DNA from: Chloroflexota bacterium
Lineage (GTDB): Bacteria > Chloroflexota > Limnocylindria > Limnocylindrales > CSP1-4
Assembly: GCA_003141955.1 (NCBI GenBank)
Contig: PLOC01000024.1
Location: forward strand, 1-32,440
DNA length: 32,440 nucleotides
Direction of reading: 5' to 3'
The notes under the pieces were generated by a model, which searched no databases, was not told where the DNA came from, and saw nothing but the letters and a program-made list of their open reading frames with translations. Below are positions 2,756 to 21,271 of the stretch, piece by piece. The stretch's first letter is position 1. The number at the start of each line of letters is the position of its first letter. A program made the position numbers and the translations under genes.

Positions 2756-3131
2756 GCACCCGGGGGCCGGCTCGGAATGGAGTGGAATCCCTGAACGGCG
2801 CCCTCGGGCCATCCCCGGTTGGCGCGGCAAGGGCCGCCTCCGCTGTTCGCCGGTTTCTGCGAAATTCCCAACCTGCGAGCGCTATTCAGGAGGTAGGCGA
2901 GCAGCCCGTCTCGGTCCGGGCCTCGGGCCGCTCGGCCGAGCACGGTCCACGCTCAGAACGGGCTCGCTCCGGGTGGCCACCCGCGCGCGAGGCGCCGAAC
3001 TCGACGGCCTCGGCGCCGATTCCAGCGTAGTGCCCGTTCGGTGCACAACTTGCAGGAACCCGCGGGCCGCGGAGGCGGGCAAGGGGCCGGGCCGCGGCGT
3101 GGCAAGCCCGTTATCCGCAATGGATGCCCTG
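2756..3131. other. Intergenic stretch between the divergent kinase and dap operons
   Basis: No gene can be supported in this part of the gap. The long minus-strand frame crossing it (to 4990) is a shadow of dapB/dapA. The only recognisable elements of the gap are at its right end, 3132-3202. Confidence 0.45.
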
Positions 3132-3202
3132 GTGCATAACGACGCTATACGATGTGCATGATGCACGCAACACTTGCGCATGATGCCCCAGTGGTGCATA
3201 GT
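3132..3202 (+). promoter_or_regulatory. Promoter/operator region of the dap operon with phased GTGCAT sites
   Basis: GTGCAT occurs at 3132-3137, at 3154-3159 and at 3194-3199; GCGCAT occurs at 3176-3181. The first three starts are spaced exactly 22 bp, about two helical turns. The second belongs to a perfect palindrome GTGCAT-G-ATGCAC (3154-3166), and its core GCATGATGC recurs at 3178-3186. A weak promoter fits inside: -35 TTGCGC (3174-3179), 17-nt spacer, -10 CATAGT (3197-3202). The third and fourth GTGCAT-like sites overlap the -35 and -10, so a bound protein would block transcription. The regulator is unknown. Confidence 0.5.
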
Positions 3203-3211
3203 CCGCCGGCA

Positions 3212-3280
3212 ATGTTCGTTCAGATGCTCGCCAAGCCCAAGTCCAAGCGTTGGCGGCCCAGCCGGGAGGCGAGGCCCTGA
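3212..3280 (+). CDS. Candidate lysine-codon leader peptide of the dap operon
   Basis: A 22-codon ORF opens with ATG at 3212, 9 nt after the candidate -10 box, and closes with TGA at 3278-3280. Codons 8, 10 and 12 are all AAG (Lys; 3233-3247), inside the stretch A-K-P-K-S-K-R-W-R. No Shine-Dalgarno is visible, consistent with a nearly leaderless start. A terminator-like hairpin lies 50 nt downstream and dapB begins at 3401. Three Lys codons in five, in front of a lysine-biosynthesis operon, is the layout of ribosome-mediated attenuation. The Lys codons sit in a hexamer repeat (NCCAAG three times, 3230-3247), so chance repetition is the main competing explanation. Function is inferred. Confidence 0.5.
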   Translation: MFVQMLAKPKSKRWRPSREARP

Positions 3281-3329
3281 GGCTCGGCGAAGTTCGAGAA
3301 GAACCGCGGGGCCAGGGCAAGGCTCCGAG

Positions 3330-3368
3330 GGCCGCGACACCGAGGGTGGGTGTTGCGGCCTTCTTGTT
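3330..3368 (+). terminator. Intrinsic terminator/attenuator in the dap leader
   Basis: The arms GGCCGCGACACC (3330-3341) and GGTGTTGCGGCC (3349-3360) pair over 12 bp with one G-U and a 7-nt loop. TTCTTGTT (3361-3368) follows directly. It lies 32 nt before the dapB ATG and ahead of the whole operon, so it can only act as a conditional terminator. A rival pairing is possible: GGCC 3273-3276 with GGCC 3330-3333, together with CTCGG 3283-3287 with CCGAG 3325-3329. It would disrupt the 5' arm. Confidence 0.65.
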
Positions 3369-3400
3369 CGTCCGAGGGGATCGCTACGGAGGTCACGGGA

Positions 3401-4225
3401 ATGCAGAGCGTCGTCGCCGGGGATGGCGGAATGGGTCGAGCGGTCGCGGCTGCGCTGGCCGCCGGCGGCATGCCGCCGGCGGCGATCCTGGGCATGCCCG
3501 CCGACCCGACGGCCGGCCACGAGCCAGCGCGATTCGCCGGCGCTCAGGTGCTGTTCGAATTCAGCCAGGGCGACGCCGTACTCCCCAACGTCCGCGCAGC
3601 GCTGGCCGGCGGAGTCCGAAACTTCGTCATCGGCACGACCGGCTGGGCGGATGACCGCGGCGAAGTCGCCGACCTGCTTGCCGACCGCGACGCCGCGGCC
3701 GTGGCTTCGGCCAACTTCAGCCTGGGCGTCATGCTCTTCGCCCGCCTCGTCGAGGAGGCCGCCCGGCTCTTCGGCCCGTTCGCCGAATACGACCCCTACA
3801 TCGTCGAGTGGCACCGCCGCACCAAGGCCGATCGCCCGTCCGGAACCGCCATCGAGCTGGCGCGGCGGCTCATCGCCGCGCACCCTCGCAAGACGCGCGT
3901 CGCCCAGCCGACGGCTCACGGCGCCCCCGCACCGGAGGAGCTGGACGTGGCCGTCATTCGAGCTGGCGCAGCTCCGGGGATGCACCTGGTCGGCTTCGAT
4001 GCTCCGGGCGAGAGCCTGGAAATGCGGCTCACGGCGCGGGATCGATCGGCCTACGCGTCCGGCGCCGTCACCGCCGCCGAGTGGCTGCTGGTCGAGCCGC
4101 GCTCGCCCGGCTTCCACCCATTCGATGAAGTCGTCGACTCGATGATCGCCGTCACGAGGGCCAAAACGGGCGCGGCGGCCGGCGCCGAACCCTCCTCGGC
4201 CGCGGCGGCCGCCCCTGTCAGATAG
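3401..4225 (+). CDS. dapB: 4-hydroxy-tetrahydrodipicolinate reductase
   Basis: A 274-residue DapB, which reduces the DapA product to tetrahydrodipicolinate with NAD(P)H in lysine/DAP synthesis. The N-terminal nucleotide-binding loop is AGDGGMG (7-12). VIGTTGW lies at 77-82 and ANFSLGV at 104-110. The active-site signature is WHRRTKADRPSGTA (137-150): the catalytic His (H138) and Lys (K142) are kept, but the usual second His of the HH pair is Arg. The ATG at 3401 is chosen because GGAGG (3388-3392) lies 8 nt upstream; an in-frame upstream start at 3350 would fall inside the terminator hairpin. The Ala-rich C-terminal tail (about 255-274) is beyond the usual end. It is the first gene of dapB-dapA-dapD-lysA and the one directly behind the attenuator. 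Confidence 0.93.
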   Translation: MQSVVAGDGGMGRAVAAALAAGGMPPAAILGMPADPTAGHEPARFAGAQVLFEFSQGDAVLPNVRAALAGGVRNFVIGTTGWADDRGEVADLLADRDAAAVASANFSLGVMLFARLVEEAARLFGPFAEYDPYIVEWHRRTKADRPSGTAIELARRLIAAHPRKTRVAQPTAHGAPAPEELDVAVIRAGAAPGMHLVGFDAPGESLEMRLTARDRSAYASGAVTAAEWLLVEPRSPGFHPFDEVVDSMIAVTRAKTGAAAGAEPSSAAAAAPVR

Positions 4226-4261: not shown

Positions 4262-5299
4262 ATGCCACTCACACGCCAGATCCGAGGAGCCTTCACCGCC
4301 CTCGTGACGCCCTTCACGCCCGACGGCGCAATCGACAAGCCGGCATTCGGGGCGCTGGTCCGCCGCCAGCTCGACGCCTGCATCGACGGCCTCGTCCTGG
4401 CCGCCAGCACCGGCGAGAGCCCGACGCTCAGCCCCGAGGAGCGCGAGTGGCTGGTCGGGACGGCCGTCGAGATCGCGTCGGAGCGACCGTCGCGCTGCCG
4501 AGTCAGGATCGTCGCCAACACCGGCAGCAACGACACCGCGGCCACGATCCGCGCCACTCGGCGCGCGGCTGAGCTCGGCGCAGACGCGGCCATGTGCGTC
4601 GCCCCGTACTACAACAAGCCGGATCAGCGGATGATCGAGGCCCACTTCCGGGCCATCGCCGACGACGGGGCGCTGCCGATCGTCGTCTACAACGTCCCGA
4701 GCCGGACCGGCGTCAACGTCGAGCCGGCGACGCTGATGCGCCTGGCCGAGCATCCACGTATCGTGGCCGTCAAGGAAGCCTCGGCGAACATGGATCAGAT
4801 CGCCACGATCCTGCGCGATCGCCCGGCTGGCTTCTCGGTCATGGCCGGCGACGACGTCTGGACCCTGCCGATGCTGGCGATGGGCGGGGACGGCGTGATC
4901 TGCACCTGCTCCAACGAGATCCCCGGCGAGATAGCGGCGATGTGCGCCGCGGAGTTCGCGGGCGATTGGGACACCGCTCGGCGGATCCACGAGCGCTGGC
5001 TGCCGCTCATGAAGGCCAACTTCATCGGTGGGCCGAACCCGGTGCCGGTGAAGGCCGCCCTATCGCTGATGGGCCTGACGACCGACATGGTGCGTCTGCC
5101 CCTGCTGCCGCTCGAGGAGACGCATCGCGCCCGATTGCGCCTGGTCCTCGAGACGACCGGCGCCCTGGAGTTCGACGGGACGGCTGTTGTCGGATCCACC
5201 AGCGGTGCCGACGCCAACGGTGCGTCTAGGTCGACCGGACCAAAGCGCTCCACGGCGCGGTTGGCCATCGTCCAGGCGACCGCGACGGCCCACACGTGA
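4262..5299 (+). CDS. dapA: 4-hydroxy-tetrahydrodipicolinate synthase
   Basis: A 345-residue DapA that condenses pyruvate with aspartate semialdehyde, the committed step to lysine and DAP. It is a TIM barrel with STGESPTL (49-56), the catalytic Tyr143 in YNVPSRTG and the Schiff-base Lys171 in VAVKEAS. AAGGAG (4247-4252) lies 9 nt before the ATG. It follows dapB by 36 nt. The protein is about 45 residues longer than usual: from about residue 303 a Ser/Thr/Ala-rich tail follows the normal end, with no recognised domain. The first substrate-loop residue of the common GTTGE motif is altered to A-S-T-G-E, a conservative change. Confidence 0.95.
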   Translation: MPLTRQIRGAFTALVTPFTPDGAIDKPAFGALVRRQLDACIDGLVLAASTGESPTLSPEEREWLVGTAVEIASERPSRCRVRIVANTGSNDTAATIRATRRAAELGADAAMCVAPYYNKPDQRMIEAHFRAIADDGALPIVVYNVPSRTGVNVEPATLMRLAEHPRIVAVKEASANMDQIATILRDRPAGFSVMAGDDVWTLPMLAMGGDGVICTCSNEIPGEIAAMCAAEFAGDWDTARRIHERWLPLMKANFIGGPNPVPVKAALSLMGLTTDMVRLPLLPLEETHRARLRLVLETTGALEFDGTAVVGSTSGADANGASRSTGPKRSTARLAIVQATATAHT

Positions 5300-5341: not shown

Positions 5342-6151
5342 GTGAACGACCGAACGCTATCCGAGATCCTGTCCGACCTCAACTCCGGCCGAATCCGAGC
5401 GGCCTACCCGGACCCGAACGCGCCCGGCGGGTGGCGCGTCGATTCGGCGGTGCAGTCGGCTATCCTGGGACTCTTCGCCGACCGCGAGACCCGGACGTGG
5501 GAGCTGGGCGGCGCGTTCCAGTTCCGCGACCGCGTCGGGCTGCCGGTGAAGGATCTACTCGACTCCGCGGAGGCGCGCGAGGCGGCGGCGGCCGGCAAGC
5601 CGTGGCGCGTCGTCCCCGGCGGCACCACCGTCCGCGGCGGCGTCTACCTCGGGCCCGGCGTGACGATCATGCCGCCCTCCTACATCAACATCGGGGCCTG
5701 GGTCGGCGAGGGCACGATGGTCGACTCCCACGTTCTGGTCGGCTCGTGCGCCCAGATCGGGGCGCGCGTCCACCTTTCGGCCGCGGTCCAGATCGGCGGC
5801 GTGCTGGAGCCGGCCGGCCGCCGCCCGGTCATCGTCGAGGACGAGGTCTTCGTCGGCGCCCAGTCGGCGCTGCTCGAGGGCGTGCTCGTCAAGCACGGCG
5901 CCGTGATCGCGGCGGGGGTTATCCTGACCGGCACGAGTCGCCTGTACGACCTCGTGCGGAGCGGCGTCCTCGTCGGGACGCTGGAGGAGCCGTTGGTCGT
6001 CCCCGCCGGCGCCGTCGTAGCGCCGGGCGTGCGGCAGGCCCGGGGCGAGTTCGCGGAGAGCAACGGTATCGGCCTCTCCGCCGCGGTCGTGATCAAATAC
6101 CGGGACGAACGCACAGACGCTCGCGTCGCGCTGCAGGAGGCTTTGCGGTGA
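5342..6151 (+). CDS. dapD: 2,3,4,5-tetrahydropyridine-2,6-dicarboxylate N-succinyltransferase
   Basis: A 269-residue DapD that transfers succinyl from succinyl-CoA to tetrahydrodipicolinate. Its presence indicates the succinylase branch of the DAP pathway. The left-handed beta-helix hexapeptide region spans about 98-230, with the family signature INIGAWVGEGTMVDSHVLVG (115-134) followed by SCAQIG. The residues corresponding to the catalytic Asp and Glu are D128 and E179. The start is GTG at 5342, 42 nt after dapA. It has neither a recognisable Shine-Dalgarno nor a -10 box, so it probably depends on coupling or weak initiation. Its last bases overlap the lysA start in GTGA (6148-6151). The later genes dapC, dapE and dapF are not in the window. 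Confidence 0.94.
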   Translation: MNDRTLSEILSDLNSGRIRAAYPDPNAPGGWRVDSAVQSAILGLFADRETRTWELGGAFQFRDRVGLPVKDLLDSAEAREAAAAGKPWRVVPGGTTVRGGVYLGPGVTIMPPSYINIGAWVGEGTMVDSHVLVGSCAQIGARVHLSAAVQIGGVLEPAGRRPVIVEDEVFVGAQSALLEGVLVKHGAVIAAGVILTGTSRLYDLVRSGVLVGTLEEPLVVPAGAVVAPGVRQARGEFAESNGIGLSAAVVIKYRDERTDARVALQEALR

Positions 6152-7515
6152 CTTCGGAGGACGGGCCGGTCGAAGGCAAGCCGGTCGAATCATCGGCCGA
6201 GCGGGAGGTCGAGCAGGCGATCGAACCCGAGGCGCCTCCGATCGACGGCCTGCTGCGAAATGGCCTGCTGGCCGGCCTCGCGCCGCACACGCTCGCGACG
6301 GACTTCGGCACTCCTCTCTACGTCTACGACCTGGACCTCGTTGGTCGCCGCATCGACGCCCTGGGGGCCGTCCTGCCTTTCGGCTTCCGCCTCGCCTTCG
6401 CCGTCAAGGCAAACCCCGCGCTCGGCGTCCTGACCCACATCGCCGGCTCCGGCATCGGCGCGGACGTCGCATCGGGCGGAGAGCTCGAGGCGGTCCTCCG
6501 GGCCGGCTTCGCCCCGGTTGCCATCGCCATGACCGGGCCCGGCAAACGAGACGACGAGCTGGCCGCCGCCGTCACCGCCGGCATCGGCGCCGTGACCGTC
6601 GAGTCGCTCGGCGAACTCGCCCGCCTGGATGCGATCGCCGAACGGCTCCGTCGCCGCCAGCCGATCCTGCTCCGGCTGGCCGTCGCCGACGACGCCAAGT
6701 TCGAGCGCGTCCGCCTCATCGGCGGCGCCGCCGGCAAGTTCGGCATGCCGCTGCCGGTTCTGCGGGAAGCGGCCGGGATCGCCGCCGCATCGCCGAACCT
6801 CGAACTGCTGGGCGTGCACGCCTTCGGCGCCTCGAACCTGCTCGACGCGAGCCGGCTCGCCGATCACGTAGCGGAGCTCGTGGCGGTAGGCGAGGAAGTG
6901 GCCACAGCAACGGGCGTCCCTCTCCGGCTCGTCGACGCGGGCGGCGGTTTGGGGATCCCGTACGCGGACGGGGAGCAGCCCCTGGACCTCGCCCTGCTCG
7001 GCACGCGGCTGGAGGAGCTGCGCGGACGCTGGGATAGCAACCCCGCCCTGCGCGAGATGGAGGTGCTGCTGGAGCCGGGCCGCTTCCTGGTGGGTCCGGC
7101 GGGTGCCTACGTGGGCCGGGTCGTGGACGTCAAGGGCACGGACAAGGCTCCGGTGGCAATCCTCGACGGCGGCATAAACCACCTCGTCCGACCCGCCCTC
7201 GTGCGCCAGGAACATCGGCTGGCCGTCCTGGCCCCCGACGCAGATTCGCGCGACCGCGTTCCTACGACAGTCGCCGGGCCGCTCTGCACCGGCCTCGACG
7301 TCTTCACGTTGCACGCGAAGCTGCCCCGCCCGCAGGTCGGCGATCTCATCGCCGTCCTGGACGCGGGCGCCTACGGCTTCACCGAGTCGATGCCGTTCTT
7401 CCTGTCGCACCCGACCGCCGCCGAGATCGCGGTCCGCGGCGGGCATGCCTGCCTCATCCGGCCGCGCGTGTCGCCCCACGACCTCCTCGACCAGCAGATC
7501 GCCCCGCGCTGGTAG
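6148..7515 (+). CDS. lysA: PLP-dependent diaminopimelate decarboxylase (LysA), Btrk-like signature
   Basis: A 455-residue fold-type III PLP decarboxylase, expected to convert meso-DAP to lysine as the last operon step. The PLP lysine is K87 in FAVKANP, the glycine-rich phosphate site is GGGLG (265-269), EPGR lies at 309-312 and the active-site Cys380 is in GPLCTGLDVF. LysA enzymes usually read C-E-S-x-D there and H-x-H-x-GS near residue 224; here they read C-T-G-L-D and HAFGAS. Those are closer to my memory of the Btrk-type decarboxylases. A 45-residue acidic N-terminal extension precedes the barrel. The GTG start at 6148 overlaps the dapD stop and has AGGAGG (6135-6140) 7 nt upstream. The operon context supports DAP as substrate; the motif change leaves some doubt. 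Confidence 0.85.
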   Translation: MTSEDGPVEGKPVESSAEREVEQAIEPEAPPIDGLLRNGLLAGLAPHTLATDFGTPLYVYDLDLVGRRIDALGAVLPFGFRLAFAVKANPALGVLTHIAGSGIGADVASGGELEAVLRAGFAPVAIAMTGPGKRDDELAAAVTAGIGAVTVESLGELARLDAIAERLRRRQPILLRLAVADDAKFERVRLIGGAAGKFGMPLPVLREAAGIAAASPNLELLGVHAFGASNLLDASRLADHVAELVAVGEEVATATGVPLRLVDAGGGLGIPYADGEQPLDLALLGTRLEELRGRWDSNPALREMEVLLEPGRFLVGPAGAYVGRVVDVKGTDKAPVAILDGGINHLVRPALVRQEHRLAVLAPDADSRDRVPTTVAGPLCTGLDVFTLHAKLPRPQVGDLIAVLDAGAYGFTESMPFFLSHPTAAEIAVRGGHACLIRPRVSPHDLLDQQIAPRW

Positions 7516-21126: not shown

Positions 21127-21147
21127 CACCGGACAACAGAACAAAGA

Positions 21148-21236
21148 CAGGGGAGCGCCGGGGCGGCGCTGAGAGTGCGGAGCAAGATCCGCAGACCCTT
21201 GGAACCTGATCCGGGTCATGCCGGCGAAGGGAGTCA
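21148..21236 (+). ncRNA. TPP riboswitch (THI element)
   Basis: The conserved blocks appear in order: GGGGAGC at the 5' side (21150-21156), GGCGCTGAGAGTGCGG (21165-21180) with the invariant CUGAGA, then ACCCTTGGAACCTGATCCGG (21194-21213) and TCATGCCGGCGAAGGGA (21216-21232). It binds thiamine pyrophosphate. It precedes thiamine pyrophosphokinase and the ykoEDC transporter, the expected regulon. The expression platform appears to be the hairpin at 21246-21271. Confidence 0.96.
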
Positions 21237-21245
21237 AGCACCGAG

Positions 21246-21271
21246 CACCTCTGTCGAGTCCGATGGAGGTG
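21246..21271 (+). promoter_or_regulatory. Shine-Dalgarno-sequestering hairpin, riboswitch expression platform
   Basis: CACCTC (21246-21251) pairs with GAGGTG (21266-21271), which holds the GGAGG ribosome site of the first cistron (21265-21269); the stem can extend outward by G-U/A-U pairs. There is no terminator between the aptamer and the start. Control of translation initiation is therefore the likely mode. Confidence 0.6.

Follow-up and report, generated by a model that had tools for sequence, protein, structure and literature searches.

The dap operon and its leader region

The window, i.e., the whole stretch of DNA analyzed, comprises 32,440 nucleotides of contig C99 in a 2.8-Mb genome (G000). 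Where genomes are named, close relatives of its DapB come from metagenome bins of Chloroflexi, including a Candidatus Limnocylindrales. On its plus strand, which also carries all the leader features described below, lie dapB (3401 to 4225; PF05173/PF01113), dapA, coding for DHDPS (4262 to 5299; PF00701), dapD, for a hexapeptide acyltransferase (5342 to 6151; PF00132/PF14602), and lysA, for diaminopimelate decarboxylase, a PLP decarboxylase (6148 to 7515, start approximate; PF02784/PF00278). These Pfam matches uphold the assignment dapB-dapA-dapD-lysA made in an initial annotation of the window. A Shine-Dalgarno (SD) sequence, GGAGG, precedes dapB at 3388 to 3392. Elsewhere in the window, an ordinary TPP riboswitch (21139 to 21249, plus strand, 72 bits) is followed by a thiamine pyrophosphokinase-like ORF.

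Upstream of dapB, a short ORF (3212 to 3280) encodes the peptide MFVQMLAKPKSKRWRPSREARP. It begins with ATG at 3212, comprises 22 sense codons, ends with TGA at 3278 to 3280 and has no SD. Three AAG codons specify Lys, namely codon 8 (3233 to 3235), codon 10 (3239 to 3241) and codon 12 (3245 to 3247), which are at positions -6, -4 and -2 from the Trp codon. The initial annotation had reported this ORF and its AAG codons at exactly these positions. A short ORF that repeats codons for the amino acid made by the operon it precedes is one criterion of a trp/his-type attenuator, and the dap leader satisfies it.

An intrinsic terminator sits between the leader ORF and dapB, as this kind of attenuator requires. 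Its stem (3327 to 3363) has 15 pairs and a 7-nt loop, with a T-rich tail at 3361 to 3368, confirming what had initially been described as a GC-rich hairpin with a U-rich tail just before dapB. It is the sole intrinsic terminator in the interval 3050 to 3450, for which shuffled sequences give an expectation of 0.1, and the hairpin alone has a free energy of -27.0 kcal/mol. The fold z-score of the window leader is only -2.0. Other pairing elements are hairpin H in the last part of the ORF (3255 to 3277), segment B (GGCTCGGCG, 3281 to 3289) immediately 3' of the stop codon, segment C (CGCGGGGCC, 3305 to 3313) and segment D (GGCTCC, 3321 to 3326). B can pair with A, which contains the Lys codons, or with C, and C can pair with B in the antiterminator or with D in the terminator state.

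Conservation of the Lys codons

We compared the leader with those of its family, Limnocylindrales (Chloroflexota), represented by 107 genomes. DapB was found in 68 of them, and Lys codons were counted at the 65 loci whose upstream DNA could be read in register. All 65 leaders had at least two in-frame Lys codons within the 10 codons before the conserved core, a criterion met in the other two frames by 0/65 and 3/65 and by 3.5% of shuffles. The relatives' ORFs carry two or three Lys codons in the ten codons 5' of the core, which usually reads (L/R)WRPCREAR. Lys occupies position -4 in 61/65 leaders and position -2 in 64/65, with both AAG and AAA in use, i.e., with synonymous change, whereas the Lys at -6 is restricted to the AKPK genus. 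Nine different amino acids occur at position -3, between the Lys codons, and the Lys stretches of relatives include KPKSK, KKK, KQK, KAK and KRK. Within the family, the WRPCREAR end is strongly conserved; 8/65 leaders have lost its Trp and 18/65 its Cys.

In another family of the same class, two genomes keep AKSK before dapB. One of them (G144) has a leader starting MITLHPFEAKSKPIAARPIG, without the WRPCREAR ending, and the leader of the other (G496) ends in FVAKSKPMRSCREARA followed by the stop codon. A covariance model of the leader found matches upstream of dapB family-wide, with E values down to 1e-35.

These results bear on two points of the initial annotation. It had cautioned that the Lys codons lie in a hexamer repeat; that caution is removed because the Lys stretches of relatives differ, Lys at -4 and -2 is spelled AAG or AAA and the intervening codon is free. 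It had also held that relatives lacking the ORF or its Lys codons would refute its proposal of Lys-codon attenuation, and both are kept.

Two variants were seen along the way. In one genome (G027), dapB is present twice and preceded both times by a Lys leader (G027:C253:2560-3806 and G027:C168:11494-11653); about 1 kb from one copy there is a further leader, of the Met-Cys type, in front of a carbonic anhydrase gene. In another Lys leader (L008, G040:C171:33426-33608), about 28 nt have been inserted into the terminator hairpin, on its 3' side.

A putative promoter abutting the leader ORF

A putative -35 element, TTGCGC (3174 to 3179), and a putative -10 element, CATAGT (3197 to 3202), precede the ORF. 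Relatives have TTGnnn (TTGACA in one genus) some 17 to 18 nt before a -10 of the form CATAAT or TATnnT. In 63/65 leaders, a -10-like hexamer lies 6 to 11 nt, mostly 9, 5' of the leader ATG, from which we predict that the transcript starts almost at the ATG. An SD was present at only 1/65 leader ORFs, compared with 62/65 dapB starts. Given this lack of an SD in 64/65 leaders and the promoter abutting the ATG, the leader ORF is predicted to be leaderless or nearly so. As a general sigma-70 scan of the window did not call the leader promoter, the promoter assignment rests on conservation.

Just upstream of this promoter, between 3133 and 3200, TGCAT/ATGCA boxes cluster in the window, the palindrome GTGCATGATGCAC among them. 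The same cluster occurs at the corresponding place in 16 leaders of the same genus, with a density per 110 nt of 5.3 in this genus, compared with 0.9 in other genera and 0.06 in the background. It resembles an operator array and might be one for an unidentified DNA-binding regulator, an inference drawn from sequence alone.

Mutually exclusive structures and ribosome position

Structure statistics were obtained on 60 aligned leaders (alignment A1). In the helices of the terminator state, H, C:D and E:F, 89% of the cells were paired and 9 pairs had changed on both sides, a level of covariation reached by 4 of 500 shuffles. Hairpin H was paired in 93.9% of cells family-wide, with 3 pairs changed on both sides, and C:D in 88.3%, with 2.

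RNA folding in which the RNA was masked to 13 nt past a ribosome stalled at Lys(-4) yielded the antiterminator, a long hairpin. Its outer arm, GCGGCCC (3253 to 3259), lies within the Trp-Arg-Pro codons and pairs with GGGCCGC (3329 to 3335), part of the terminator 5' arm, which is thereby sequestered. A middle helix joins GGAG (3265 to 3268) with CTCC (3323 to 3326), and B:C completes the hairpin. The outer arm was paired in 99.8% of cells (419/420), the middle helix in 85% and B:C in 90%. Over the whole antiterminator, 92.7% of cells were paired, and cells with changes on both sides numbered 9, compared with 3.1 for shuffled data. As the outer arm is nearly invariant, its covariation rests on few events, one compensated change within the family (G041) and one in G496 (GCGGTCC with GGACCGC). 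The requirement that the same bases pair with the terminator arm accounts for the conservation of the peptide end WRPCREAR.

In the model, a stall at Lys(-4) left the arm free and the antiterminator dominant in 60/60 leaders, with a mean probability of 0.98 for ribosome edges of +12 to +14. With the ribosome at the stop codon, the antiterminator fell to zero and the terminator was favored instead. In 55/60 leaders, moving the ribosome switched the fold between B:C (stalled) and C:D (terminated); the remaining 5 showed no switch in this simple model. A stall at Lys(-2) hid the arm in most cases, and with a strict +13 edge it exposed the arm in 0/60 leaders, even though the -2 codon is conserved too. 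Without a ribosome, the antiterminator formed before completion of the terminator in 25/60, and basal control is therefore not clean in the model.

For the full-length stalled RNA at equilibrium, the terminator (-72.8 kcal/mol) was more stable than the antiterminator helix (-64.0 kcal/mol). Since the terminator is more stable once its 3' arm exists, we infer that the antiterminator must win kinetically, by forming first. Kinetic antitermination is usual for attenuators. A further criterion of an attenuator, a mutually exclusive antiterminator that depends on ribosome position, is met in computation only, and the preference is kinetic rather than one of equilibrium.

Two other antiterminators were considered and set aside. 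The initial annotation had proposed a rival pairing (3273-3276 with 3330-3333 and 3283-3287 with 3325-3329), whose complementarities are present in the window; it failed as a conserved antiterminator, being kept in 74% of cells without covariation above that of shuffles. A scheme of the his type, with six segments and D:E as antiterminator, was pairable in 93% of cells. It had almost no probability in the stalled-ribosome model, and the fold gives the longer hairpin with the ORF arm in place of D:E.

Sister leaders with other codons

The covariance model R1, which describes the lysine leader, also detected second leaders in many of the same genomes, with the same core and other codons (loci L148-L184, L187, L204 and L213-L220). 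Their downstream genes were named by reading translations by eye, without a family search. The 21 leaders before metY have two to four Met codons and no Lys, in Met-x-Met arrangements (MCM, MMSM), and the 8 before cysE have two or three Cys codons and no Lys, as Cys-x-Cys (ACFC, ACSC). In the same comparison, Lys was present in 65/65 dap leaders. More sister leaders precede cysK (CSC) and a sulfite/nitrite-reductase-like gene (CVCMC), as well as beta-carbonic anhydrase and OsmC-like genes. Three leaders occur in G000 itself, the Lys leader described here, a Met leader before metY (G000:C54:161-280) and a Cys leader before cysE (G000:C102:613-721).

Codon identity thus tracks the amino acid of the operon, be it Lys, Met or Cys; this is shown by comparison, without mutant data. 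These leaders, with the same core, Met or Cys codons and no Lys in the same genomes, are the strongest evidence for the attenuator. Sampling of the phylum with both models gave credible members in this class only. A weak match elsewhere in the phylum (G404) was discarded, as it lies at the terminator of another gene without a comparable leader. A 28-bp match to the leader was discarded as well: it falls within helicase-like coding sequence of contig C13 and is, in our judgment, due to chance. A search for the core pattern allowing 3 mismatches did no better than its reversed control.

Two leaders (L220, G016:C121; L185, G012:C95) combine the same core with a peptide containing four Cys codons in a row (CCCC) and precede a membrane-protein-like gene (DUF4395-like by eye).

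Proposed mechanism

We propose that the region from 3174 to 3368 acts as a trp/his-type, ribosome-mediated transcription attenuator, which senses charged lysyl-tRNA and controls dapB-dapA-dapD-lysA. We consider this very likely (probability about 0.9), in the absence of any experimental evidence, i.e., of expression, translation or lysine-response data. The initial idea of Lys-codon attenuation is supported by the exclusive conserved structures, the covariation, the ribosome geometry and the codon-swapped sisters. The anatomy, conservation, covariation and codon swap are shown; stalling, termination and the response to lysine in the cell are inferred.

In this model, RNA polymerase would initiate very close to the ATG, after which the near-leaderless ORF would take on a ribosome. 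When Lys-tRNA(Lys) is scarce, the ribosome would stall at the Lys codons, chiefly at the one four codons before Trp, the predicted main sensing codon. The stall would free the mRNA from GCGGCCC (3253) on, so that the long hairpin could take up the terminator 5' arm and polymerase would read into dapB. With ample lysine, the ribosome would reach the UGA at 3278 and cover the end of the ORF and B; C:D would then pair, the terminator (3327 to 3363) would form and transcription would stop.

Alternative explanations

The leader might instead encode a nascent-chain arrest peptide of the TnaC type, K-x-K-L/R-WRPCREAR, whose signal is not codon speed but free lysine or some other ligand. The very high conservation of the WRPCREAR end in the family speaks for it. 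However, that stretch doubles as the antiterminator arm and hairpin H, so conservation at the RNA level explains it. Moreover, the Trp and Cys residues have been lost in the leaders counted above, G144 retains AKSK and the pairings yet reads PIAARPIGTGPA, and the sister leaders retain the RNA core with other peptides. We regard an arrest peptide as very unlikely.

Somewhat less likely still is a terminator controlled by an unrecognized riboswitch or RNA-binding protein, with the ORF incidental. Alternative structures do exist, and Rfam covers described families only. Against this stand the in-frame Lys codons in 65/65 leaders with their synonymous changes, the exchange for Met or Cys codons when the operon changes, the absence of the L-box from 107 genomes and the lack of a T-box at the site.

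A chance combination of a constitutive terminator with a K-containing ORF derived from an AAGCCC repeat could be entertained for the window alone, given its hexamer-like repeat and its fold z-score of only -2.0, but it is all but excluded by the relatives, with conservation in more than 60 genomes, covariation and family-wide covariance-model matches before dapB.

A possible attenuator family

Setting these alternatives aside, a bolder form of the attenuator reading appears likely to us. The dap leader would belong to a Limnocylindria-specific family of codon-interchangeable attenuators. In this family, a single near-leaderless core, whose GCGGCCC within the ORF pairs with the terminator arm, would be combined with two sensing codons, -4 and -2, for Lys, Met or Cys, depending on the operon. 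Its Lys member would be the first lysine-sensing ribosome attenuator. Our search of the open-access literature on lysine-codon, Chloroflexi and Met/Cys-codon attenuators found no lysine attenuator; as subscription papers were outside the search, novelty means "not found" and is not proven. Ribosome-mediated attenuation is already known, and it is the lysine signal and the codon-interchangeable family that we did not find described in the open literature.

If the proposal is true, lysine, hitherto missing, joins the amino acids that are sensed through the ribosome, and the mechanism is extended to the Chloroflexota. The same RNA core with Lys, Met or Cys codons is a natural codon-swap experiment, in which three factors can be tested one by one: the identity of the codons, the geometry of the ribosome edge and leaderless initiation. 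The model also predicts that codon -4 is the most important one and accounts for the conserved peptide end as the antiterminator arm.

Comparison with known systems

Lysine operons are run by L-boxes, T-boxes or proteins. The L-box (RF00168) and the T-box (RF00230) are likewise RNA controls of genes for lysine or other amino acids. Among the Rfam covariance models, no family, these two included, matched the dapB leader, so that a known riboswitch or T-box there, the other finding that would have refuted the initial proposal, was not detected. No lysine riboswitch was found in the 107 family genomes, and control genomes were positive. T-box matches, none of which reached the Rfam cut-off of 93 bits (the best scored 82), occurred in 101/107 genomes, elsewhere than at dapB; in the window's genome they lie at G000:C29:27798-28087 (minus strand) and three other places. 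tRNA-sensing RNAs are therefore probably present in these genomes, not at dapB, and the matches are likely to be divergent Chloroflexota T-boxes worth curating.

Closer parallels come from leader ORFs, the nearest that the literature search turned up being the uORFC-8-2 motif and the SEP5 sORF, the latter a passing mention. The uORFC-8-2 motif in cysS leaders of Rhodobacterales combines a conserved uORF, tandem Cys codons and a terminator, and ribosome-mediated attenuation has been proposed for it (PMC8632094). It differs from the dap leader in its amino acid, phylum and gene, and the relevant passage reports no interchangeable codons. The trpL/rnTrpL leader of S. meliloti (PMC10117765) has, as is predicted for the dap leader, a leaderless ORF and a transcription attenuator; it differs in responding to Trp and in belonging to Alphaproteobacteria. 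The S. meliloti SEP5 sORF, near an aspartate-metabolism gene, has six Thr and three Lys codons and was only suggested to encode a leader peptide (PMC10117765). Both it and the dap leader have Lys codons, but SEP5 mixes Thr with Lys and is confined to Sinorhizobium.

The thr, his, trp, ilv, leu and phe operons of enterobacteria have ribosome-mediated attenuators (Vitreschak et al. 2004, cited in PMC9413887; thr in PMC12925634). As in those, the dap leader has an ORF with codons for the operon's amino acid, and the position of the ribosome would choose between antiterminator and terminator. Unlike them, it has lysine as its proposed signal, an ORF predicted to be near-leaderless and an unrelated sequence, occurs in Chloroflexota and places the 5' arm of its antiterminator inside the ORF, just after the sensing codons.
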